NCBI RefSeq assembly: GCF_000150955.2 | Contig: NC_011680.1 | Span: 723,926-787,925, forward strand | Direction of reading: 5' to 3' | Length of the DNA: 64,000 nt | From: Phaeodactylum tricornutum CCAP 1055/1 | Lineage: Eukaryota > Bacillariophyta > Bacillariophyceae > Surirellales > Neidiaceae | Part shown: positions 13,227 through 58,929 of the stretch, one piece after another | Layout: each line of letters starts with the position of its first letter | Numbering within the stretch: position 1 is the stretch's first letter | Translations under genes and position numbers: made by a program | Notes under the pieces: model-generated | Seen by the model: the letters and a program-made list of their open reading frames with translations, nothing else | Told to the model about the DNA's origin: nothing | Databases searched by the model: none

Positions 13227-16200
13227 TTATTTTTTCTTAAGCATGGAGGAGAGGAAACCAAGGCCACTGCTCATTACGCCTCCCGAACCAGTCCCGGCAG
13301 AATTAGAAAAGTTTATTTGTTCCCTTGAGTTTTTTCCGCGTAGTTGTATCTCCTCGAGAGATCGATCAGCTTGGACGGAGAGCAGAATGAAACGTCGAGA
13401 AGATGGCAAAGGCGCCAAATGAAATAGAACCGATTCCCCTCCAAAATCTGATGTGTTATCCAATCCATGACCGTCGGTAAAAGCGTTTGCATCTGACTGT
13501 CCAAAGAGCGTTGAAGTGAACAAATCAGTTGCGCCTAGGACATAGGAATACTTCCTCGCTAGCTCCTGAGATACCGCTTCCCACTCGTCCAAACGGAATC
13601 GTGAACAGAGCTGATTCTTGTAAGAATGGATCATCGCTTCCAACAAGGCAAGTGATTTGTCGACGAGGATCTTTGCTCGGTCGTCGTAACCAAACTGATT
13701 TCGTTCGAAAAAACACAGCCTCAAGAACACTACATCAGCGTATACTTGAAGCAGAGCAGGAAGTGTGAGGGTATCCAAATCATCAAGGCTCCCATAACAT
13801 GTTTGCAGTATCGACGATATGAAAGAAAGCGACTGTTGTAGAAGAGCGGCACGAACTGTACCTCGCAACGTGGCAATGGCGCCTTGAGCAACTCCAAATT
13901 TAGACGCATATTCCGATGAAGGCACCGGAGGCAAAGAGTCTGGTGGGCAGGTTGACTGATTTAAAATCGAGGCAATCTCCAAGATTGCTCCCACAACGTG
14001 TGGAGAAACATTCGTAGAATCTGGTGCATAAATTCGGCGCCACTCTTCCTCTGAAAATTCGGAACCACTGGCAAATACGTCGAAAGTACAGTCTTGATAA
14101 GCTTGTACCAGGCCTGATACGGAATATTGAGCCCACTCGTCGAAGCAATGCCCAACAATATCGTCTAGAGCTAGTTGTATCGTGCCAAGAGCACTTTGCG
14201 AACCCGTAGTGTCATGGCGCAGGCCGCGTGCTGTAAGTAAAACCAATTCATGAAGGGTGACACTGAAAGATGGACAATGCGCTGTGTGCGGGTCTTGATC
14301 CATAGCACCTCCACCAGTCTTGGTCAGCAAAAGCGTATCGCGAATCATTTCTCCTCCACGAAACGGAGTTCCAGAAAAGGCACTTTCTACAGCTTCCATG
14401 GCTTCGTCCAAAGAAATGAGGCCATCGTTGTTGTCGTCAGCCAAATCGAAGGCTGATTGCAAATCAACATAAGAAATCATTCCCATGGTATGATGAGTCG
14501 GATCGGCAGCGCTAGTGGCGTCCAGCAACGTGGGTAGAGCTGTCAAACGAAACTTCAGCAAATGACAAAGGCGCCCTACTATCAACTCCTTGGTTGCATC
14601 GATATTTTTGCGTTGCGATTTCGCGTCAAGGCTTTCGGGAACAGCAACCATGCGACGTAGTTCACAAATAAGCCTTCCCATAATTTCGGAAGTTTGAACA
14701 TACAGTGATTGCTTTAAGCGACGTTCACTTTCTTCTCGTTCTTCGGCGTGCACCAACAATTCGTGCGCGTCATCACTCACCCTCAGTAGATCCTGATCAA
14801 GTTGGGTTGCAATCCTTAATGCGTTACGGTAGGCTTCATGCGGCAAAAGAGCCGACAAAGGCGGGGCATTACCGATTAAGGCTCGTAGAGTCGACACAAC
14901 CTTGGCGTGTACGGATTGAAAGGCAGTGGTCAATAAAGAATGAACGAGAGACGAGAAGGTATTCGAAAAAAGGGCGCTCCAGAGCGAGAATTGGCGATCA
15001 ACAGGCACGCGATTGCTAGAGTCTGTCGTCTGACTCGAGACTGAATGTACGTCGACCATACTTGCAACTGCTTCCTCCCAAGTGCAGGTTCCATTTCTGT
15101 CCAATAGTTGCCGACATTCGGAGCCGTCTGTTTTATCGTAGAGAGATTGGCGAATCTGTCCCAAGGCACTAGCTGTCGTACCCGCAATAGTGACCAGGAC
15201 GGACTTTACCTTGGTCCGGATCAGTGGCAAATGCGCCGCAAGAAACTTGGAGCATTTCGCGCGTATCAATTTCGCGTCGAAGGGGGGTAGCGTTTGCACA
15301 ATCTGGTCGATAGTAGAGTTGCTTTCGCCGTGCGGAGTAGGGAGCTGGCGGAGAACGAAAATCTGAAAAGGATGCAAAATGACGTCGTACTGTAAAACAA
15401 GAACAATCTTGGACAGAATTTCCTCGGCATTGTCCGTACCGACATGCGAACTTTCCATCTCCGAATCGTCAACGTTCTCATCCTTGGTGTTGACTGCCAA
15501 TTGACTCAATAAGGACGCTAGCAACTTGGTTTTGGAATTAAAATACCAATCCACAAGGTACGTAGCCCTATCTTGCTGAAGCTGGGGATCAGTCAAAAGC
15601 CAATCTAAGGCAGACAAGGCTGATGCTGAGGAAACGACACCCACGTTGGGATCAAAAGATTCCTCGTCACCGTAAGATGCCGCTTGCAGCAAGTTCTGTT
15701 CCGCTATGTGTGTGATATGACGAGGCAAACTTTGCACTTGTAAAAATACCATGCGCATTTGCGTTTGCAATAGCACAAAGCCTGAATGATCTTTGACAAT
15801 ATCGGCTTCGATTTTCGGGAATGCTCTCGCCGAGAGACTCGGCTGGCGAGCCAACACCGTGGCGAGTGGATATTCGCTGCTTTGTGAAGCGATCAAGGCG
15901 AACAGCTGGATCAAGGTAGTGGCAGCCTGGTGTATGTCATTTCGATCCACCGCGCGGTAAACCACCCGCGGTAGAGTTGACAGATCATGTCGTAGACGAA
16001 CTAAATTTGAATCTGCAGCAGTTAGCCCAGCATCCGTCTTTTCTTCGTCCTTCGAATCAGCGGTTGCGTTAGCGGAAGACAGGGAAAGCTTGTCGATTAG
16101 CCCAGGCAACGCGTGCACGAGATCGAACAACTCTTGTGAACGCTCTTTCATACGAATGACTTCGTCACTGCTGCCGACTAGTTCGCGATAACGCGACGCC

Positions 16201-16508
16201 AAGACGAGTCGTAGTTCGGTTCGTTTGGCTTCGGCCTCTCGTAGAGCCTGCTGGTGTACCTGTCGCATTTCGTCAATCGTCATACTTTTCGCCATGGATT
16301 GCGAATACTGCGAATTCGTGGTACCAGCGGGTGACGAGGTTGGTCGCGGCAGCGGAGGCGGCGGTAGACTACTACTCGTCGCCGCACGAAACCCGGACGT
16401 CCGCGACACGGACGAGGATGCCGCCGAAGTGACCGAAGAAGATCGAAACGACCGCGAGGGTGGTAGATCGGGAACAGATCCATCGCTACGAGATCTAGGG
16501 TAGCTCAT
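13227..16508 (-). CDS. COG1: Conserved oligomeric Golgi complex subunit 1 with EF-hand insertion
   Basis: Lobe-A subunit of the COG tether for intra-Golgi retrograde vesicles. About 1,093 aa from MSYPRSRSDG, single exon. After a Ser/Pro-rich leader comes the Vps51/COG1 signature (IDEMRQVHQQALREAEAKR, then TELRLVLASRYRELVGSSDE). The C-terminus ends with the conserved YDDRAKILVDKSLALLEAMI-type helices. Around residues 691-702 (bases 14403-14438) sits a canonical EF-hand loop, DDNNDGLISLDE, flanked by YVDLQSAFDLA and AMEAVESAF helices. This is not a usual part of COG1. The frame is open back to an ATG at 16730, which would add 74 residues that look non-conserved; either start is possible. Confidence 0.85.
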   Translation of the reverse strand: MSYPRSRSDGSVPDLPPSRSFRSSSVTSAASSSVSRTSGFRAATSSSLPPPPLPRPTSSPAGTTNSQYSQSMAKSMTIDEMRQVHQQALREAEAKRTELRLVLASRYRELVGSSDEVIRMKERSQELFDLVHALPGLIDKLSLSSANATADSKDEEKTDAGLTAADSNLVRLRHDLSTLPRVVYRAVDRNDIHQAATTLIQLFALIASQSSEYPLATVLARQPSLSARAFPKIEADIVKDHSGFVLLQTQMRMVFLQVQSLPRHITHIAEQNLLQAASYGDEESFDPNVGVVSSASALSALDWLLTDPQLQQDRATYLVDWYFNSKTKLLASLLSQLAVNTKDENVDDSEMESSHVGTDNAEEILSKIVLVLQYDVILHPFQIFVLRQLPTPHGESNSTIDQIVQTLPPFDAKLIRAKCSKFLAAHLPLIRTKVKSVLVTIAGTTASALGQIRQSLYDKTDGSECRQLLDRNGTCTWEEAVASMVDVHSVSSQTTDSSNRVPVDRQFSLWSALFSNTFSSLVHSLLTTAFQSVHAKVVSTLRALIGNAPPLSALLPHEAYRNALRIATQLDQDLLRVSDDAHELLVHAEEREESERRLKQSLYVQTSEIMGRLICELRRMVAVPESLDAKSQRKNIDATKELIVGRLCHLLKFRLTALPTLLDATSAADPTHHTMGMISYVDLQSAFDLADDNNDGLISLDEAMEAVESAFSGTPFRGGEMIRDTLLLTKTGGGAMDQDPHTAHCPSFSVTLHELVLLTARGLRHDTTGSQSALGTIQLALDDIVGHCFDEWAQYSVSGLVQAYQDCTFDVFASGSEFSEEEWRRIYAPDSTNVSPHVVGAILEIASILNQSTCPPDSLPPVPSSEYASKFGVAQGAIATLRGTVRAALLQQSLSFISSILQTCYGSLDDLDTLTLPALLQVYADVVFLRLCFFERNQFGYDDRAKILVDKSLALLEAMIHSYKNQLCSRFRLDEWEAVSQELARKYSYVLGATDLFTSTLFGQSDANAFTDGHGLDNTSDFGGESVLFHLAPLPSSRRFILLSVQADRSLEEIQLRGKNSREQINFSNSAGTGSGGVMSSGLGFLSSMLKKK

Positions 16509-16798
16509 CTTTCTGGAAAGGTACGGCTGTGCAGAGGGCGATCCGAGCCGTCCCCTTGCGAGTTTGGGTACGTTTACCGTGGATCGACTAGTACCTCTAG
16601 TAGTGCAATGGAACGGTCTTCTGCTGTTTGTGCCCAGGTCACAATATTCCCGTGCCGTGCGAACAACACCAGGCCAACACAACCCGGATGTACTATCGGG
16701 AATGAAAAACTTGACAGTCGCGGACACCATAAAGGGAACATATTTCCCCGTTATAAAGCTATCTATATATGCACTGATTGTACTGTTAGAAAGCTTGC

Positions 16799-16807
16799 TG
16801 ACAGTGA
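16799..16807. promoter_or_regulatory. TGACAGTGA palindrome upstream of COG1
   Basis: A member of the TNACWGTNA motif class, 291 bp before the chosen COG1 ATG and 69 bp before the alternative one. If it belongs to the COG1 promoter, the transposon's left boundary must lie between here and the transposase stop at 16892. Confidence 0.4.
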
Positions 16808-16891
16808 GGTATTTCGGTGATCTCCGACCCTTGTTTAGATACCTAGATAAGGCCCTAAATATGCATAAATAACCCGGAAACTAAAGAGAAA

Positions 16892-18694
16892 TTAAACTTG
16901 CACTGTGTCTTTAATGTCTCCGTTCTCCTTGAGATCAGCATCGCTAGCCGCACCAAACACATCCTCTACACCGCTTTCCTCTCCGCTTTCATCCGGATAA
17001 TTTTCGGGAGGTATACCTTCGTCTAATCCCGCTTTGTAAGCATCATAATCATCAGCTTCCTCCATTTCCAATGCCTCATCAGCTGCCTCCTCCATTGGAA
17101 TGTCTTCCTTGAACTGTCGCGCTAAATTGGTGCACTTGACAATCATACAATGAATGGAATCATGCCCTGACTCCTGCAACATGTCAAATTCTTTCATCAA
17201 TCGCTGGTACACAAGGTCCAAAGTTGAATCCAAACTGTACTGTCTGCCAACATTTCCCTTGATCAAAGCCCATACAAGCTCAATTGGTTGCAGATCGCTA
17301 TGATATGGTGGGGTGAACAGAACTCTATGTCCCTGCTCCTCAGCCAACCTCACACACTCAAATTTTTCATTTGCAACAATCCAGGCCTTTGTCCGGACTT
17401 TAAGCACCACAGCAGAACATTCTGCCTCCGTCTCAATACCTTTGGAATGGAGATAATCAATACACTCCTGCTTTTGCATCTTCCCACACTTTGGAACATG
17501 ACTCCCATATACCTTATGATATGCTGCATTGTCCATGTGAATAAGACAAGGCTGATGCAGGTTGGGTAGGAGCTGATTTTTCCACCAAGTGACAAAGTTT
17601 TCACCATTGAATACTTTATGGTAGTCACCTTGGTCACTACCCTTCTTCTGTGGACAGAATGCCCAAATGGTTCCTGGCACCAACCCAGCCTTTTCGGATG
17701 CAAGTTCAGGAACATCAACAAAAGGATCTGGTCCCTGAATTGCGGCAGCAAAGCAGTATCGCCGACCTTTGTGCTTTGACTTTCCATGCTGGATGTCCAA
17801 GACATCCTTAGGGTCCCAAACACTCCTGTCGTTCTTGTTATAGTGCTCATGAATACAACTTTCATCCATGTACACATTGCGCAGCCTTTCCCCTTTTGGT
17901 AGTGCTTCATTGGTAAAGAGAGCTTGAACATACTCATGGCGTTTGGCAATCATTGATTGATTTGGGGCAATGTTGTTACGTCGGCCCCGCCTGTAACCAT
18001 AGTCTTGCAAATATCGACGCACATTGCGAGAGGCTGTCTGGAAATCTTTCTTTACAAACACTCCCATCTTCGGATCCATTGGAATGCATAATATGCCTTC
18101 TTTAATAAAGAAATCCAGCACTTCACGTCCCGTTACTAGTTTCTGAAGTTTCCGTTCCCCTCGAACAAACTCACGGACGGCAATCGAAACGCTCTTTGTT
18201 CGGGGGATCCGACTTGATTTTGCGCCACTATTTCCGCCTCTCCCTTGACCATCCAATCCACTAGCATAAACAGAGCGGTGTAGGATGTACCCTGACATGA
18301 TTTTAGTGTAAACCTTTGGTGAAACGCCAAGCATACGGCACACGGTATTTCGAACTTCAGGAGCGGGTGTGTTCTTACACTTATTTTTGGATTTTTTCAG
18401 GAGATATTCCTTCTGGAACCTAAGACTGGCCACAATGATACGCGCCGAGGTATTTCGATCGTAGTCTATGCCCTGGAGTAGCAAGGAAGCTTCTCTTTCC
18501 ATAGGCAAAAGTACCTCAAGTGTGCTTGGCATCAGGGCCCTTGTCTGATTGGACGCCTTTGGAGACTTCGACCGGACCGATTTTGCCGCGCGTTCTGGCC
18601 CAATGTCTTCCAGTGCATGCTTTTTAGTGCATCCGTCAGATTCTGTGTATTCGTCTTCCTCTCCCAAGGAGAAATCTTCATCCGAGTCCACCAT
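16892..18694 (-). CDS. IS630/Tc1/mariner-type DDE transposase
   Basis: Intact 600-codon transposase. The start is taken at MVDSDEDFSLGEE; an upstream in-frame ATG lies at 18760. The N-terminal half is helical and basic, ending in a winged-helix-like region (GREVLDFFIKEGILCI, then RNVRRYLQDYGYRRG). The DDE core is complete: first Asp in NVYMDESCIHEHY, second in CLIHMDNAAYH, third acidic residue in TPPYHSDLQPIELVWALIK. The order matches the DDE_3 superfamily. The C-terminus is a long acidic tail. No introns and no disabling change were seen, so it may encode an active enzyme. Terminal repeats for this unit were not found on its left side (16808-16891). The right side carries tandem palindromes and then another element's inverted repeat. 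Confidence 0.85.
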   Translation of the reverse strand: MVDSDEDFSLGEEDEYTESDGCTKKHALEDIGPERAAKSVRSKSPKASNQTRALMPSTLEVLLPMEREASLLLQGIDYDRNTSARIIVASLRFQKEYLLKKSKNKCKNTPAPEVRNTVCRMLGVSPKVYTKIMSGYILHRSVYASGLDGQGRGGNSGAKSSRIPRTKSVSIAVREFVRGERKLQKLVTGREVLDFFIKEGILCIPMDPKMGVFVKKDFQTASRNVRRYLQDYGYRRGRRNNIAPNQSMIAKRHEYVQALFTNEALPKGERLRNVYMDESCIHEHYNKNDRSVWDPKDVLDIQHGKSKHKGRRYCFAAAIQGPDPFVDVPELASEKAGLVPGTIWAFCPQKKGSDQGDYHKVFNGENFVTWWKNQLLPNLHQPCLIHMDNAAYHKVYGSHVPKCGKMQKQECIDYLHSKGIETEAECSAVVLKVRTKAWIVANEKFECVRLAEEQGHRVLFTPPYHSDLQPIELVWALIKGNVGRQYSLDSTLDLVYQRLMKEFDMLQESGHDSIHCMIVKCTNLARQFKEDIPMEEAADEALEMEEADDYDAYKAGLDEGIPPENYPDESGEESGVEDVFGAASDADLKENGDIKDTVQV

Positions 18695-18742
18695 GGTGAG
18701 TTTTATTATTTTGGCGAGTTTGGCGATTTCGGGTCGAAAAAC

Positions 18743-18796
18743 ACTCGTGACTGCAGTCACGAGTTGGCAAAAACACTCATGACTGCAGTCACGAGT
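18743..18796. repeat. Two tandem 22-bp palindromes before the transposase
   Basis: ACTCGTGACTGCAGTCACGAGT-type palindrome at 18743-18764 (perfect) and again at 18775-18796 with one base changed. The copies start 32 bp apart, about three helical turns. They sit 49-102 bp upstream of the transposase ATG, a position suiting transposase binding or self-regulation. Function is inference; the repeats themselves are read directly. Confidence 0.7.
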
Positions 18797-18808
18797 GACG
18801 AAAAAAAA

Positions 18809-18916
18809 TGAGAAAATTCGGTATTTGGGATGAGCAGGGGTGAAATTTTCGCTATTTGGGAAAAATCACACTGTTTCTAAGTGTTTTTATTCTCGCGGGA
18901 AATACTTTCTAAGTAA
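18809..18916 (+). repeat. Left terminal inverted repeat, 108 bp
   Basis: Base-for-base identical to the reverse complement of 20769-20876. The inner continuation to about 18953 is diverged. Confidence 0.9.
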
Positions 18917-19489
18917 TCTTTTTAGTTAAGAAAAACCCCTTATCCTATGTTAGATCACAAGGATTGTTTTCATGTGGTCATCCCTTCACATTCACAGTTA
19001 GATGCCTCCAATGGTGAGGACTCGGGGCTGGCATTGACCCATGCAAACGATTACTAACTTCCAACCAACAAAAGTCAGAAACACAACTACTATGAAGCTA
19101 GAAATTGTTGGCCTTGCTGTCTTGGATGACAAACGTAGTATAGAAAATTACTTGCTGCCAAAGTACATTGCAAGTGTGTCATATGTCCGTCACTCTGGAC
19201 CGTCGGCATTTGGATGTCACGTCGCACTTCATCCCTTCAATGCGGAGTTTGGTGCAGAGCGGGTACCTATTGCCGTTGTAGATTGCATCCAGAGTGGGCC
19301 CCACACGACGCGCTTTCGGACAGCGGAAGGCTGTAATGGCGCTGCCCTTGTTTGGAGAGCCTCCGCCCACAGACAGCTTGTTGATTGTCAACTACTCCTT
19401 TGACACGCACGCGTTGGAAACCTTGGACATTACTGTCCCCAGTAACGTGACGTTTGTTGCGCTCCTGACCGCCCTTGAGGATTTGTATT

Positions 19490-20665
19490 CTGATTTTTGA
19501 CGACGGCATACCGGTGACAAAAGGTACAGCACTGAACGTATTGACCGGTAATACGCACATGATTCCCTTCTAGCAGGAGCGAACCAAACGCCAAGGCTTC
19601 GGCAGTGTCCCATTTGATACCTTCGCCATTTCCCGACGCGCCTTAAAGATTTTGGCCATTTGATGGTACAATTTAAAATTAGCTGGAACCGTTCCGGCTC
19701 GGATTCCTATCTTGCGCAAAGTCCATCCCATTGCCGGTAGGACGAATACGACTAATCTGCGACGGCCCTTTGAAACCAGTCCACCTGGAGCTCAACCAAT
19801 CCGTCTCCTTTTCCACATACATCTTGGAAGCTTCCAATCCTTCTCGTAGCTTTCCAGCGTAAAGTCACGGATCTCTTAACATCTTCTTTGGATAAGGTTC
19901 CTTCTTCAATCAATCCTTTTTCGAAAATATCCAGGGTTGGTGGGTGTTGAGAGATTTCCTTATAGAGTTTGGGTTGTGCAAAGGCCGGCTGATCCAATTT
20001 GTTGGGACCATTACAACGGTAGCAGACCATCTCGATAATGACATCCATGCCCCAGTCGTGATGCCATTCGACGGCTGTCTCGAGTGCCGTCGATACTGCT
20101 AGGGGATCGTCGCCGTTGCAGTGAAAGGTGGGGCAATTGAAGGCCTTGCCCAACTCCGACGAGTAGGGCACTGAGAGCGAATGTAGGGGGTTGGTGGTGA
20201 AGCCAATCTGATTGTTGATGATGACGTGAATGGTTCCACCGACATCAAAATCGGGCACCTCGGCCATTTGCATGGTCTCGTAGACTACCCCTTGCCCGGC
20301 AAAGGCGGCGTCTCCGTGCAATAGGATTGGTAAAACGTTACGATATCTTCTTCTGGCTGACGGCCTTGGCAACATGCCCGGACAGCGAGAACATAATTTT
20401 TTTTTAGAATGCACTGTGCCGGACCGAGTGCTTGCTCATTCGCAGCTTTGCCCGAGAACAACGGCTCGTGGGGTTCTTCGTTGTCCGAAATCTCTTCGGC
20501 GGCTTGCGAGTAAAAGCTGATCCCAACAAACCCCTTTGTGACAGGATGAATTCGTGCTGATCCCCCTTACTGTCAAAGCCTAGCGTTGCTTTCTGCACTT
20601 TCTCCGTTTTGTCGCCGCTGTCCAATATCTCAGCCAGTGTTGTACTTCACGTCGTGAACAAGAAA
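19490..20665 (-). pseudogene. 2-oxoglutarate dehydrogenase E1 pseudogene fragment
   Basis: The central part of the thiamine-dependent E1 subunit of the TCA-cycle oxoglutarate dehydrogenase is recognisable in several frames. It begins with a degenerate DVKY block near 20655. Then come LPILLHGDAAFAGQG and IHVIINNQIGFTT, then AFNCPTFHCNGDDPLAVSTA, and VIIEMVCYRCNGPNKLDQPA near 20000. Further on are SRIRPTG, AGTVPANFKLYHQMAKIF and [20 protein letters not shown], ending near HRYAVV at 19500. The reading frame shifts at least at about 19860, 19745, 19700 and 19640, and the N- and C-terminal thirds are missing. No introns are evident. It lies wholly between the two 108-bp inverted repeats, so it looks captured or inserted inside the element. 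A functional gene should exist elsewhere in the genome. Confidence 0.8.
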
Positions 20666-20768
20666 GAGTTGGCTGCTGGGTGGAGAGTCAAAAATTTCAT
20701 GGAAGGAACTGGTGAATTGAATCTAAATGGCTATGCATAGTATATGGGGTTGTTCTTAATTGAAATAT

Positions 20769-20876
20769 TTACTTAGAAAGTATTTCCCGCGAGAATAAAA
20801 ACACTTAGAAACAGTGTGATTTTTCCCAAATAGCGAAAATTTCACCCCTGCTCATCCCAAATACCGAATTTTCTCA
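20769..20876 (-). repeat. Right terminal inverted repeat, 108 bp
   Basis: Reverse complement of 18809-18916 without a mismatch. The inner continuation runs to about 20732. Confidence 0.9.
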
Positions 20877-21292
20877 AATAAAATTTTGGACTACAATAAC
20901 TCATCCTCTATTAGAAGCTGAAAGTTCCACTAAAGTCCTACTACAAACTTCGAATCGAGGTTTAGTGTCTGGTTGGAGCAATAGAGTGAAATAGAGCTTT
21001 CCGGGAAAGATATGATCATATGTTCCCTTTATGGTGTCCGCGCCTGTGAACTACTCGAACTATGGACACTAGATGTGAAGAGTTAATGATGCCTTTAGGC
21101 TCCAATTCTACAAATAAGTCCCATATTGATTGTGAGATCCCATTCTTAGGAACGACTGTAACATAGCGCCAACGAAACCTTTCCTTACGCGTAAAGTAAA
21201 ATTGAAAGCGACAAGCAGAAAGTGACCATAGTTAACTGTAAACTTTGCCAAAGCTCCATCTAGTTTCATTCTGCATCGGATAAACGTCCTGA
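20877..21292. other. Spacer between mobile element and RecN-like gene
   Basis: 416 bp without a supportable gene. It carries one TAACTGTAA palindrome at 21233-21241, near the 3' end of the RecN-like gene rather than a start codon. Confidence 0.35.
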
Positions 21293-23734
21293 TCATCCCT
21301 CTACACTTCGACGGCTCTCGGCACCAGCGCGTAACAATGCATCGGCGAAAATTTCCGCCTCAGCCTTTGCCAAATTTCCGCTCGCCATACGGGCCAACTC
21401 CTTTCGGCGAGCGATGCCCTCCACAGTCAATGCCTTGACGCCATTGTAACCCTTTTCCTTCGTTTTATCACCAACGGATTGGATAACAATGTGCAGATCT
21501 GCCGTGGCCGCAACCGATGCGCTATGCGTAATGCAAAATACTTGACTCGATTGCGACGACTGAATAGCTAACATGTTGGCAACGGCGACCGCTGCATTTC
21601 CACCAACGTGTGCATCAATCTCATCATAAATGACCGCCACCGGAGACTGTTTCGAGAAACGTTGTTCCATGTCATCGTCACTTTCGTCCCCCGCAGCCGC
21701 CGCATTGGAAGCACTACCGTCGATCATAGCACCAATCGAACCAGGCAACGCACATTCTATCGCGAGCAAAATTCTTGCCTTCTCTCCCGAACTTGCCGTT
21801 GTGTGAATTGGAGATCGTCTAGGGACCACGCGGTTCGCATTAGTTCCGGTAGCATTTGCGGACGACAATGCCGAAACGAGCCAAAAGTCAACCTCATTCG
21901 TGCCGAGAACTGATCCTGTCCCGTAGGCAGACGGCTCGTCACATCGTCGAACCTCACTGACTTCTACTTGCAGCGCCATCCCTTCCATCCCCAAGCAAGG
22001 TAAACGGTCGGTCACGACTTCTGACAATCGCTCTGCCACTCGTCGTCGTTCGATAGTCAACAACTCGCAGGCGTCCCGAAATGAAACAAACGCTTGTGCT
22101 TCTTGCTCGATCGAAGCCGGCAGTAGTTGCAATGCTTCCACGTTCCCATTTCGCTCGTTCTGCAATGCTTTGTGGCACGATGGTAACGTTGTCGGAGCTA
22201 TCCCGTGCTTGCGTGCCAACGTGTTCCATTCCAACAAGAGGCCGTCGACAGCCTCAACCGAACACGGACAAGTTTGGCGACACTCCTCCAAGCGATTCAA
22301 GAAGTTTGATTCCATAAAGCGAGAGCAGTTCAGGAGGGTAGATTCAACACTATTCAGAAGCTCATGGGATTCTTCAGCTGCTTGTGATATCTTTGAATTG
22401 GGTGATTCTTCTGATTGGGCAGCGTCGAAAAGTAGCTTACGAGCGCGCTCTAAACTCGACATGGTCGATTCAGAACGCGACATCGACGACAAAGTTTCAA
22501 TAGCGTCATACGCTGCCACAATTTGGTTGTCTGCGTCTCTTATTGCGTCTCGTAGCATTACGATGCAATCATACAGTCGAGACGAAAATATATTTGGCCT
22601 TCTCGAGCCATTTTCCATCCAGGTCGCCGTGGCCAACTCTGCACGGGCAGTTTCCAAGGCTGACCCATTGGAATCCTGTAAACCCGACGCAAACTTACAA
22701 AACGACATCACACGAGATTCAAAGGCATCGATTTCGTCAATCCAATGTGTTAGTAGTTCCACGTCGTTCAGAGAGTCGGACGTATAAGATGTTGGCAGCA
22801 CACGGCTAGCAAGTTCTGCTTCTAGGACCTCCCGTTCCCGACGGCAGACCCGGTACTTTGCTTTCGACTGAGTCATATAGGTTTTTACTTGCGGCTTTAC
22901 CGCGGTATCAAGAATGGCCATGAGGGATGTCGTCTTCACCAAAGCATTTGCTGCTATCCCAGCATCGACTGTCGCTAGCAGAGGACCCGCGACGGTAGCC
23001 AAAGCTTTGAGCGTCACGCTTTGGCCATTGATTGAACAAGCAGACTTTAATCGCAGCTTCGCTCTTTCTGATGTTGCTAGCGACGTTGCTAGCGACCGTC
23101 GGAGACATAGAATTCCGCAGGAAGAATTAGTTGCGGCAGAGAATAACAAGGAAGAGTTCACTCCAAGTCGTTCCAGGGTAGCTTTGGTAGCACCAAGGTG
23201 CGGATCCGTCAACAAAAGATCCATTTCAACCACAGTCGTTACACCTCCACTATACAACGTGGAATCTTCATGCGGTTCAAAAGTGGCGACAAGCGATGGC
23301 GTCGCCTTGCCTCCGCATAACAAATTGACAACCTTACCCACAAGCAGCGACTTTCCCGACCCTGTTTCCCCGGTAACCGCTACTAAGTTTTGCCCCGGAG
23401 CAATATTTATGCAAACACTTCCCTGCTTCGCGTCGTGGTCGCGAGCCCCCGCTAAATTCGTTGATCGAATGGAGACAATTTGACTCTTAGGGGGGGAAAC
23501 AGCCGTATCTTCCGATACTGGTTGCGAAAGGAAGGGTTTGGGTCGTGTGTGCGGCGACTTTAAATACCCAAGCACTTGCAGTCTTTTCGATTGTGAAAAT
23601 AAAGTTGGTTGAAAGCCCTGCGCGCATAAAAGAGCAACAGCGAAGATAAAGGCACACTCACGAAATCGTAAAACATGGACACTCCGAAATGACGATCGCC
23701 AAAAGATCTCTGCGAAACCTATCCTCCAATTCAT
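21293..23734 (-). CDS. RecN-like DNA-repair ATPase, probably plastid-targeted
   Basis: SMC-like ABC ATPase of the RecN type, 813 aa, single exon. An N-terminal hydrophobic stretch (AFIFAVALLCAQG) is followed by FQPTLF, matching the diatom signal peptide plus A/G|F plastid cleavage rule. Walker A GETGSGKS is at residues 122-129. The centre is long and helical (coiled-coil arms). Near the C-terminus are SSGEKARILLAIE, the counterpart of the SGGE signature, Walker B VAVIYDEIDAHVGGN and the switch FCITHSASVAA. In bacteria RecN gathers broken DNA ends. A plastid version fits an origin from the cyanobacterial endosymbiont; this is inference. The signal segment begins about 27 residues after the first Met, so the true start may differ. 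Confidence 0.78.
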   Translation of the reverse strand: MNWRIGFAEIFWRSSFRSVHVLRFRECAFIFAVALLCAQGFQPTLFSQSKRLQVLGYLKSPHTRPKPFLSQPVSEDTAVSPPKSQIVSIRSTNLAGARDHDAKQGSVCINIAPGQNLVAVTGETGSGKSLLVGKVVNLLCGGKATPSLVATFEPHEDSTLYSGGVTTVVEMDLLLTDPHLGATKATLERLGVNSSLLFSAATNSSCGILCLRRSLATSLATSERAKLRLKSACSINGQSVTLKALATVAGPLLATVDAGIAANALVKTTSLMAILDTAVKPQVKTYMTQSKAKYRVCRREREVLEAELASRVLPTSYTSDSLNDVELLTHWIDEIDAFESRVMSFCKFASGLQDSNGSALETARAELATATWMENGSRRPNIFSSRLYDCIVMLRDAIRDADNQIVAAYDAIETLSSMSRSESTMSSLERARKLLFDAAQSEESPNSKISQAAEESHELLNSVESTLLNCSRFMESNFLNRLEECRQTCPCSVEAVDGLLLEWNTLARKHGIAPTTLPSCHKALQNERNGNVEALQLLPASIEQEAQAFVSFRDACELLTIERRRVAERLSEVVTDRLPCLGMEGMALQVEVSEVRRCDEPSAYGTGSVLGTNEVDFWLVSALSSANATGTNANRVVPRRSPIHTTASSGEKARILLAIECALPGSIGAMIDGSASNAAAAGDESDDDMEQRFSKQSPVAVIYDEIDAHVGGNAAVAVANMLAIQSSQSSQVFCITHSASVAATADLHIVIQSVGDKTKEKGYNGVKALTVEGIARRKELARMASGNLAKAEAEIFADALLRAGAESRRSVEG

Positions 23735-44524: not shown

Positions 44525-45440
44525 GATTGTGATGTGTTGCGGTAAGTTTCTACGTTACGAGGAAACGCAAAAACTTTGAGCGCAAATCCAGGAATCCACA
44601 ACCCAGATCTTGCGTTTGATGATTTTCTCCCACGACGAAGAATCGGACCGCTATTTCTACGTTGATAGTCGGTGGATGTTGAACGGTTTCGAGTAAGAAC
44701 GACTGGTAGTGAGGTCGTGTGTGGGAATCGATCACGGAAGGAACTGCAACTACGATGACCGGGATGGTGAAAGAAACACGTCGAGAGGTCAAGCTACGGC
44801 GTTTACTGTTCGATACTATACGGGGGACGAGAATTCGCCGAGGTTACCTTACAGTTACCGTTCACCGAAAAAGCACTCTAAACGATGCCCGCCCTCCTAC
44901 CCCTCCACAACCCCGCGTACAGAAGAATAGACGCAGTGTCACTCTCAAGGATCCAAACTGCGGATATTCCAGTCTGACTCGAAATTCCGCCCGCACGTCG
45001 TGCGTCTACGACGAGAGATGATGTCGTTGACTGTGACATACACGATCCAATCCCCGAACGGAACCCGGATATGAAGTGTAGCGGGTAGTTTCGCAATGAC
45101 ATGACACCAAAACCTCACGACAGTGACTGTAACTGCCCCCCCCCCCCCCTAACCGTAAATCGAGTGCTCGTGTCAGCATTTGTTGGCGGAATCGAATTGT
45201 GTGTAAGAGAGTTTTCTGCCCCCACCGAAGACAATTTAGACAATCGACCCATGTTGTCCGTCACCAACAACGCTAGAGCCACCGTCGTGACTCTAGCATA
45301 CAAGTCTCTCTCTTGCACACAATTAGAGTCCGCCAACGAATGCTGACACGAGCACTCGATTAACGGTTAGGGATGCGTGCGTATCCACAACTTATCCAAA
45401 TTCTGTCATTCGTTGATGCCGGTGCCGCAGCACCTAAGCT
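44525..45440. promoter_or_regulatory. Intergenic 916 bp with promoter motifs and a foldback element
   Basis: Upstream of the LETM1-like gene. TTACAGTTA is at 44849, TGACTGTGA at 45028 and TGACTGTAA at 45124, followed by a 14-base C run (45136-45149) and the MITE-like element. Confidence 0.45.
45147..45372. mobile_element. MITE-like foldback element, 226 bp
   Basis: Ends are long inverted repeats. The left arm starts CCCTAACCGTAAATCGAGTG and the right arm ends CACTCGATTAACGGTTAGGG. About 65 bp pair with roughly five mismatches. The interior is about 95 bp without coding potential. It abuts a poly-C run, so the outer left boundary is uncertain and no target duplication could be read. Superfamily unknown. 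Confidence 0.7.
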
Positions 45441-55543: not shown

Positions 55544-56294
55544 GCTTCTCTGTCGATGCGAGAAAAAGTTTTATACCTGGCGCGATCTCCTTTTTCGTCG
55601 ACTATCCATGCCGAAGAATGGGTTTCGGTTGGGCTCTGGGTGTTCAAAGGCCTAGTTGGTCACCGTTTCTGAGGTTTTTGTGAGAACAATCTGGTTGGCC
55701 TGGAAGGTTTCATGCGTCGACAGCGTTTCACAGAACTCACGAACGATACACACAGGCTTCGAACGAGAATGCGCGAAGTCCTTTTTTCGATCTCGCTCGC
55801 TCACCTTTCGTTCACGCAGCTATGTTTTGGATTTGGATTGTCAGAAATTGAGAATTCTGATTGGCTCCAAGTTCTAGACCAATCACCAAACAGACTGGTC
55901 CAGTTTCGATCCATCGACGAGACATACCATATAGGGGGGAAATGCGGATGGAACGTTCCGACGACGGAATCTTGCCAATCAACGTTTCAAAGACACCAAG
56001 TTCCCGCATATCGGCCGATCCCGCAAGGCTATTGCAAAATAAAAGATCGACGCTATTGGCAAAAAGGAGAAAGCAAGATTTAGTCGATAAGTCTTAAAGA
56101 TTCATCATTGTTCCTGTATGGGTTACGACTCGAGGTCCGTTTTCGCCACAGAGAATTGCGACCGCCCGTCTGTCAAAGATTGAAGTGCCGTTCCTTGCCC
56201 TAGGTAACGGTGACCTGGGAGGCCAGCTAGAAGGTAGAAAAAGGGTGGATAAAGTGTAGTTAGAGAGTTATCCGTCCAACTTCTACTACTACTA
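55544..56294. other. Intergenic 751 bp with a CCT5 fragment copy
   Basis: Between the CCT5 stop and the SDR start; it should hold the SDR promoter. No TNACWGTNA here. A 48-bp piece of CCT5 coding sequence is repeated at 55971-56018. Confidence 0.45.
55971..56018 (-). repeat. 48-bp duplicate of CCT5 3' coding sequence
   Basis: Matches 56376-56423, within CCT5, with one mismatch and the same orientation. It encodes the CCT5 peptide [14 protein letters not shown] and is not part of a longer coding copy. Confidence 0.85.
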
Positions 56295-58085
56295 CTACTG
56301 TGGTCCCATGGAAATCACGTCGTCAATCTTGAGAATCATCTTGACCACTTGAGTTGCCAACTGAATTTGTTGTTGCTTGCCAATCAACGTTTCAAAGACA
56401 CCCAGTTCCCGCATATCGGCCGAATGGTAGCCATCCGCTTCGTTCATCACGTCCATACCGAGCCCAATTACGGGATTCTTTTCCTTGACTTGCCTCGACT
56501 TGGCGGCCGCCACTTCTTCAATCGGCGAGAGGCCAGCGTTCTCCGCCAAGGCCAGCGGGATGTCGTCCAAAGCGTCGGCAAAGGCCCGAATCGCGTACTG
56601 GTCCACACCGGTTACAGTGTCGGCGAATCGGCTGACGGCCAAGGAACAGGCGATTTCGGCTGAGCCGCCGCCGTAGACGACCCGATTGTCCCGAATGAGA
56701 TTGCGCACCACACACATGGCATCGTGCAACGAGCGTTTGGCCTCTTCGACGATCATTTTGCTGCCGCCGCGGACTAAAACGGTGACCGCCGTGGTATTGA
56801 CGGGATTTTCAATGACCAGCATGCGTTCGTCGGAGGTACCAAAGGTAATTTCCTTCACGCGACCGGCGTGTCCGAGTTTTTCCGCCGATATTTCTTCAAA
56901 GCGCGGCACGATACGTCCACCCGTAGCCATGGCAATATGCTCAATTTCGACCCCGCCGACCCAACGCACGGCCGCCAGGTCGTTCTGTAGCAGTAGATGA
57001 TTTGCTTCGTCGTCAAAGCCCCATTGACAAATGACGAGGTTGGCGCCGCTGTCTTTCACTTTTTTGACCATGTCCCGAAAGTATTCTTGTTCCTGTTGGT
57101 AGAGCTGTTCGTAGGCTTCCTTGCTGTCAATCTCGAGCTTGTGTTTCGTCTTTGGTTTGGGTGGTTCGAACGGACAAGTCAAGATGCAGAGTTTGGCGTC
57201 TTCGATAATCTTGGGCATTTGCGGATGCGCGATTTCCTTATCAATAACGATACCGTTGACGAGTTCGGCGTCTTCCAGACTCCCTCCCGTCTTCCCTTCT
57301 ACACGTATATGCTCAAAGTTGACGTCCCGCCGTTCGAGATCGGCAACTTGCAGGACGGCGCGGACGGCAATGTCGGCCATTTTGTGCTTGTGTTGGTGCA
57401 GGATCTTGCTGCTGAGTGTGGTCATCGCGGTCGCAACGAGGGCGGCGTGGTTGTTGACGGCAATGTCCATGGGCTCGGCGATTTCGGCGAGCGTCTGCAT
57501 GGCCACATCGGCGGCCTTTTCCAGTCCTTCCGCCACGCGAATGGGATGAATGCCTTTTTTCAAAAGCACCTCGGCTTGTTCCAGGAGCGCTCCGGCCAGA
57601 ACGACGACTCCCGTCGTGCCGTCACCAATTTCGTCGTCTTGGGACTGCGAGAGCTCCACCATGAGCTTGGCAACCTGGTGATCAACGTGCAGTTGCTCTA
57701 GAATGGTGGCTCCATCGTTGGTAATGGTAACGTCGCCGTCGGGACTGACGAGCATCTTGTCCAGACCTTTGGGACCGAGCGAGGTGCGAAGCATGTTGGA
57801 GATGCTACGGGCAGCGAGAATGTTCGACTTGGTCGCTTCCGTGCCTTTCACACGGGCCTTGGCCTGTTGCTCTTTTAGAATAATGAACGGCCGGCCGTAT
57901 TCATCTAGTCGGAAACAGAAGAAGTGGAAGAACACAGCGGTGGTGAGTTGAGTATTTGCGCGAGTGTAGGGTTTGTGTTTGTTTGTGTGTGTGACACTGT
58001 CTCGATTCGTGTGCTTGTCGTTGTTGAATACTGCATTGCATCGCATCCCATCGCACACACGCAACGTACCGTAGACCATCGACAT
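56295..58085 (-). CDS. CCT5: Chaperonin CCT/TRiC subunit epsilon
   Basis: One of eight subunits of the cytosolic group II chaperonin that folds actin and tubulin. Exon 1 is only 58085-58070 (16 nt, MSMVY plus one base). Exon 2 is 57904-56295; total 541 aa, as in human CCT5. The join gives [19 protein letters not shown], matching the epsilon start FDEYGRPF. ATP-binding blocks are [51 protein letters not shown] and a C-terminal [20 protein letters not shown]. The open frame extends upstream into the intron and is not coding there. A CTA trinucleotide run covers the stop. TAACTGTTA lies about 110 bp upstream. Confidence 0.93.
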
Positions 58086-58929
58086 GATGAGGCCGTGTGG
58101 TTGTGTTTCTTGAAGAGAGAGAGAGAGAGAAGCAGAAAATGGAGACAAAGGATCGAAACTGTACGAAATCTAGACAAAAGTGGAAGAAGAATCTAACTGT
58201 TAAGGAATAAACTGTTGCTGCATTGGATGGATCACGTTCGCCCATTGCCCCCGGTGCGCATCGTCGTCATGGTCGAACGGCTAGCGGAGGGGGGGTTTTC
58301 GTTCGGGTCCTTCCCTGTCGGTTCGTCGTCCCCGCAAACGGGATCCAGTCTCCTTGTCGTCTGGCGTCGATCGTCGTCGTGCACCGGTGACACGAGAGCG
58401 GTACCCGACGGTAAACTCGGACGGGACTGACTGTGACATAGCTGCATTACCTGTAAAGTAACAGTTCGCAACAGCGAACAAGACATCCGGCGATTGGCAT
58501 AAAACCATGTCACGAACTAGACTCCACTAGCTGACTGCGAAAGCACACCAAAGCACACTGCAGCATTGCCCGACCTGCGGGACCCACCATTGACGGTGAA
58601 CAATTCCTTGTTCGCGCTTGAGTTTACTGTCACTTACTGGGATATTTCCATCTATTCCCAGTAGCACACGGACTGGAACTTCGCAACACATAACGATAGC
58701 ACAATGCGTTCGATAAGCCTAACGTGTGTGTAAATGCGGTCTAAAAAAGAAATATACTTTAGTGGGATTTCTTCTTCTGCCAATCTACTCGTCAGTAGAT
58801 TTGGAGTATTCGTACAATGGTCTCGTTACGTTTGGTTCTGGTGTGTACGTCCTTCCCTTCGTTTATTCCTTCGAAAAGCAGGCCATTCCGTAGACTAGGA
58901 GAGACGAGGTTGGTGCCTGGTGTCGACGT
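58086..58929. promoter_or_regulatory. CCT5 upstream region
   Basis: 844 bp. Palindromes TAACTGTTA (58194), TGACTGTGA (58428) and TTACTGTCA (58624). A GA microsatellite lies near 58115-58130. No gene seen. Confidence 0.45.

Follow-up and report, generated by a model that had tools for sequence, protein, structure and literature searches.

Here we show that the window (the whole 64,000-nucleotide stretch of DNA analysed) contains two inverted-repeat structures, one inside the other. A 33-bp inverted repeat encloses an open reading frame (ORF) for a DDE_3 transposase together with a second, perfect inverted repeat of 108 bp, and the latter bounds a frameshifted segment homologous to the E1 component of 2-oxoglutarate dehydrogenase (OGDH). 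We consider it reasonably probable that these form a nested pair, in which an outer IS630-Tc1-mariner-like transposon harbours a non-autonomous Pack-type element, probably Mutator-like, carrying the OGDH fragment. An earlier note on this DNA had proposed a Pack-type element; that reading agrees with the anatomy and remains the best explanation, but it overlooked that the element appears to lie within a transposon whose transposase ORF is unbroken. The inner element is most likely a known type of element in a little-studied host and in an unusual, nested position.

Background

Plants are reported to have Pack elements of several superfamilies (PMC8903248), and the earlier note described these elements as best known from there. 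They are not confined to plants, however, as 370 Pack-TIRs have been listed from 100 animal genomes (PMC8277862), and Turmoil-1 of C. elegans holds gene sequences within its inverted repeats (PMC2572040). For P. tricornutum, two Mutator-like families have been described (PMC2806351), and an annotation gives 152 MuDR, 261 putative non-autonomous class II, and 235 MITE copies (PMC5859163). The site described here may already be part of that annotation, its cargo unremarked. The available text of a P. tricornutum histone paper mentions gene capture for Helitrons only (PMC10421102). In the diatom and stramenopile literature on Pack-MULEs, Mutator, and gene capture, and in the general Pack literature, no diatom Pack element appears in titles or abstracts among the matches listed.

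Methods

The outer inverted pair was found by self-comparison of positions 16001-22500. For the OGDH profile 54 loci were fetched, of which 52 had a stop-free stretch of more than 850 aa and the motif GDA; 15 were chosen by hand. Positions and strands of all features are summarized in Table 1.

Table 1. Features of the nested elements, in window coordinates
Feature	Position	Strand	Remarks
Outer left arm	16711-16743	+	31/33 complementary to 21018-21050; may begin at 16715, CAGTCGCGGACA
Transposase ORF, 600 codons, unbroken	16892-18694	-	Pfam DDE_3, 33.7 bits (cut-off 28.6)
22-bp palindrome ACTCGTGACTGCAGTCACGAGT, two copies (second with 1 mismatch)	18743-18796		32-bp tandem
Left flank AAAAAAAAT	18801-18809	+	Candidate 9-bp target-site duplication, weak, A-rich
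Inner left perfect arm	18809-18916	+	Mobile end perhaps 18810
Left arm, diverged inward extension	18917-18949	+	25/33 against 20736-20768
Broken OGDH E1 segment	19481-20339	-	Frameshift-aware score 438
Right arm, diverged inward extension	20736-20768	-	25/33 against 18917-18949
Inner right perfect arm	20769-20876	-	Mobile end perhaps 20875
Right flank AAATAAAAT	20876-20884	+	Candidate 9-bp target-site duplication
Rest of outer transposon, inner element to outer right arm	20885-21017		Assigned by position
Outer right arm	21018-21050	-	31/33 against 16711-16743; may end at 21046

Results and discussion

Arms and cargo of the inner element

As the earlier note had claimed, a perfect 108-bp inverted repeat (108 of 108 positions complementary) bounds 2,068 bp, and a weaker repeat continues from it solely inward. 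This 33-bp tail matches at 25 positions (binomial P ~2e-8) and, on that probability, is not a product of chance. The outer edge of the arms is abrupt, with no continuing similarity when the 60 bp outward of the 108-bp arms were compared, and inward of the full 141-bp arms local alignment finds nothing above shuffle level (146 of 200 shuffles scored as high as the best match). Along the 141-bp arms, mismatches occur in the inner 33 bp only, eight in all (Fisher P=5e-6). Simulating the window 20 times with a first-order Markov model gave no inverted pair at 31/33 (the best reached 27), so the inner arms are not explained by chance. The arm end occurs at just two sites in the window, both of them the element's own arms, and the arm pattern had no match in viral_contigs, where a host family would not be expected. 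If T18809 and A20876 are assigned to the flanks, the inner ends become GAGAAAATTCGG, and the mobile unit is perhaps one base shorter on each side (18810-20875; 2,066 bp with 107-bp ends). These GAG ends may resemble those of maize Mutator.

The 141-bp arms enclose 1,786 bp, of which the enzyme match occupies 859 bp, about half, running on the minus strand from 20339 to 19481 and covering columns 335-621 of the 912-column OGDH profile, with three frameshifts (near 19864, 19722, and 19627) and no stops. The ORF at 19752-20414 matches Pfam E1_dh (E=1.6e-38), and the cargo matches human OGDH 7wgr over 159 residues without gaps (E=2.6e-47) and NCBIfam PRK09404 (E=3.9e-61), the last well under that model's full-length cut-off, as expected for a fragment. 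The content had been described as an eroded, intron-free OGDH segment. Its E1 identity and its erosion stand, although the match fills only part of the interior; the largest insertion in the alignment is at most 4 codons, so there is no intron within the matched 859 bp.

In the remainder of the interior (18917-19485 and 20335-20768) no OGDH signal emerged, with scores of 23-29 over both strands versus 20-35 in 24 shuffles, under penalties slightly unlike those of the main frameshift-aware alignment. Faint OGDH-like stretches seen by eye near 20630-20700 and 20340-20470 were rejected, being unsupported by this shuffle-controlled scoring. Four interior pieces compared with Pfam yielded one sub-threshold match only (LAP1_N, E=0.17). 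The sole ORF of at least 150 aa inside the arms is that of OGDH, and a transposase domain was found in none of the five interior pieces scanned (part of the frames). The earlier statement that the element has no transposase holds for these pieces, but a transposase ORF starts 114 bp to the left of the arm, the inner element lying upstream of it. The inner element shares with Pack-TYPE elements a gene fragment between terminal inverted repeats and the lack of a transposase in the pieces scanned.

Broken cargo and perfect ends

The earlier note saw a puzzle in perfect ends beside a decayed cargo. Human OGDH and the 15 bacterial sequences agree at 41 columns within the 158 codons that precede the first frameshift, and the cargo differs at 8 of these; in leave-one-out controls, bacterial sequences differ at 0-2 of 41-43 columns and the human sequence at 3 of 44. 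A second count, over 52 columns identical in 13 non-Alphaproteobacteria, was less favourable to decay of the cargo, which differs at 11, compared with 6 for human OGDH and 7 and 6 for two Alphaproteobacteria. The excess of altered residues is not significant in any single comparison (Fisher P 0.11 to 0.44), and much of the case for a dead cargo is therefore carried by the frameshifts. Had the arms aged equally, 7 to 19 mismatches per 107 bp would be expected, taking the excess as neutral and assuming 2.3 sites per codon, equal rates, and unselected ends; the observed number is 0.

Together, the frameshifts and altered conserved residues suggest that decay of the cargo is older than the identity of the arms, and constraint on the cargo had probably lapsed when the arms last became identical. 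These counts support the puzzle without settling it. Two readings are about equally likely: young ends may have taken up an already dead gene copy, with the left/right differences of the inner 33 bp built in, or the outer part of the arms may have been homogenised later. The fuller version of the latter, in which gene conversion or hairpin template switching equalised the outer 107 bp after the cargo and inner 33 bp had diverged, in an element that also rides in a second transposon of another superfamily, is one that we hold only tentatively and consider doubtful.

Flanks and probable kinship with Mutator

At the GAG boundary the flanking 9-mers AAAAAAAAT and AAATAAAAT are identical at 8 of 9 positions, or at 7 of 10 with one more base. 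Only 42 of 400,000 9-mer pairs drawn randomly from the window reach 8/9; among A-rich pairs, however, 3.4% do, which weakens the match. The left flank is matched at 8/9 or better by 8.8% of A-rich 9-mers, and 8 of 36 rearranged versions of the right flank match it equally well. The flank match is ambiguous, one boundary giving both 4/4 and 8/9, and this ambiguity would also suit a Pack-type element of a superfamily other than Mutator, for example hAT or Merlin, both of which have 8-9 bp duplications. All main inverted-repeat superfamilies potentially form Pack elements in plants (PMC8903248), but arms of 107-108 bp are long, and the ends of Mutator-like elements (MULEs) are described as typically exceeding in length the ends found in other superfamilies (PMC6446971); we judge such an origin unlikely.

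MULEs have long arms and an 8-11 bp target-site duplication (PMC6446971). The arms here are likewise long, 108 bp perfect and 141 bp including the diverged part, and they are near the 123-124 bp given for a diatom MULE clade (PMC6446971). The row for that clade has a target-site duplication as none or not indicated, whereas the inner element has candidate 9-bp flanks at 8/9. Of the 53 window ORFs of at least 150 aa, 25 were scanned, and no Mutator transposase was found in these. The GAG-type ends and 8/9 flanks lend mild support to a Mutator-like Pack element, and the inner element is probably akin to Mutator.

The disparity between perfect arms and broken content, seemingly of different age, together with the arrest of arm similarity within 141 bp, could also point to a composite that never moved as a unit, with an old OGDH pseudogene flanked by an inverted duplication or by two oppositely oriented copies of a short element. 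We find this improbable, as the arm end is found in the window at these two sites only and the flanks match, if weakly, across the whole unit; an OGDH pseudogene between the ends of the outer transposon would itself need explaining.

The outer transposon and the probable nesting

An IS630-Tc1-mariner-like transposon most likely encloses the inner Pack-type element. This outer transposon spans approximately 16715-21046 (4,332 bp, or about 2,257 bp minus the insert), and no inverted pair as good as its arms arose in the 20 Markov simulations of the window. An ORF of 1,167 aa with a VPS51/EXO84/COG1 N-terminal domain (13227-16730) has its first ATG within the outer left arm, so its true start may be further in or altered by the insertion.

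The transposase ORF has the DDE_3-type catalytic domain of the IS630-Tc1-mariner group and matches NCBIfam IS630 (E=2.6e-13) at 50.1 bits, under the cut-off of 100. It contains the motifs MDES, MDNA, and PIE, with 83 residues from the second D to the E. No relatives were found in viral_contigs, genome_contigs (prokaryotes), plasmids, or phages, the contig searches being sensitive to close relatives only, and comparison with PDB sequences gave one chance-level match to an unrelated enzyme (E=0.52). An AlphaFold model was unusable (mean pLDDT 34.7). The palindrome ACTCGTGACTGCAGTCACGAGT sits between the transposase start and the inner element, and turns up twice in the window, and never in shuffles, when as many as 3 mismatches are allowed.

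A TA duplication was absent at all eight outer boundaries tried, and we thus name the outer element only IS630-Tc1-mariner-like. The only perfect 2-9 bp flank matches, the 3-bp ACT and TGA, occur at two of the eight boundaries, and chance can give such matches. The Sailor superfamily (DD82E) has spacings of DD78E-DD111E, with DD83E frequent in groups including Stramenopiles, and listed arms of 24-57 bp (PMC8533490); the outer element resembles it in spacing and in its 33-bp arms. It differs in the length of its transposase, 600 aa versus the 323-507 aa listed for Stramenopiles (PMC8533490), and the TATA duplication predominant in Sailor was seen at none of the eight boundaries. We do not assign the outer element to Sailor.

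Comparison of the inner arms with the outer arms, the palindromes, and a hairpin near 45 kb gave scores of 14-23 (without a shuffle baseline), the highest, 23, being with the outer right arm. Inner and outer ends are thus without clear similarity, and the inner element does not appear to derive from the outer. Capture of the OGDH piece by the outer transposon, with the inner arms as part of that transposon's structure, is highly improbable: the cargo does lie between the outer repeats, and FB4, annotated as Tc1/mariner-type, captured a gene in Drosophila (PMC8277862), but the perfect 108-bp inner arms would be left unexplained and the two sets of ends show no clear similarity.

The hairpin (45147-45372; 226 bp) has 65-bp arms that are 92% complementary, starts with CCCTAACCG, and ends with CGGTTAGGG by a C-run. 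It looks like a small MITE-like element, and its scores against the 108-bp arms (14-20) indicate no clear similarity. Elsewhere in the window, a 48-bp direct repeat (55971-56018 and 56376-56423) is 98% identical between copies 405 bp apart; the second copy falls within the terminal part of a TCP-1/cpn60 chaperonin ORF (56295-58148, minus strand) and the first is just past that ORF.

Proposed origin and relation to known elements

Mobility, order of insertion, and mode of capture of the nested pair are what we infer from this anatomy. The outer transposon would be a cut-and-paste element, IS630-Tc1-mariner-like, whose ends measure about 30 bp and whose transposase ORF is unbroken. The inner Pack-type element would be non-autonomous, its 107-bp ends moved by a transposase encoded elsewhere, and would have landed upstream of the point where the outer transposase starts, perhaps with a 9-bp duplication. 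Uptake of the OGDH fragment would most likely have occurred through template switching as the region between the ends was repaired, which is the mechanism proposed for published Pack elements.

Like plant Pack-MULE and Pack-TYPE elements (PMC8903248), the inner element has inverted-repeat ends, a host gene fragment, and no transposase of its own; it differs in being nested in another transposon, in being present as one copy in the window, and in a candidate duplication of just 8/9. As in the animal Pack-TIRs, non-transposon sequence lies between the ends of an inverted-repeat DNA transposon outside plants, but the median capture there is 224 bp (PMC8277862), versus at least 859 bp in the inner element.

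Should the host be a diatom, the known range of gene capture by inverted-repeat transposons would widen from plants and animals to stramenopiles. Refreshing of the ends, if true, would allow a Pack element to stay mobile while its cargo decays, and the nested position, if true, would let a captured piece of a gene move by two independent routes. The sharp edge between the perfect and diverged parts of the arms offers a concrete handle on whether transposon ends become homogenised.
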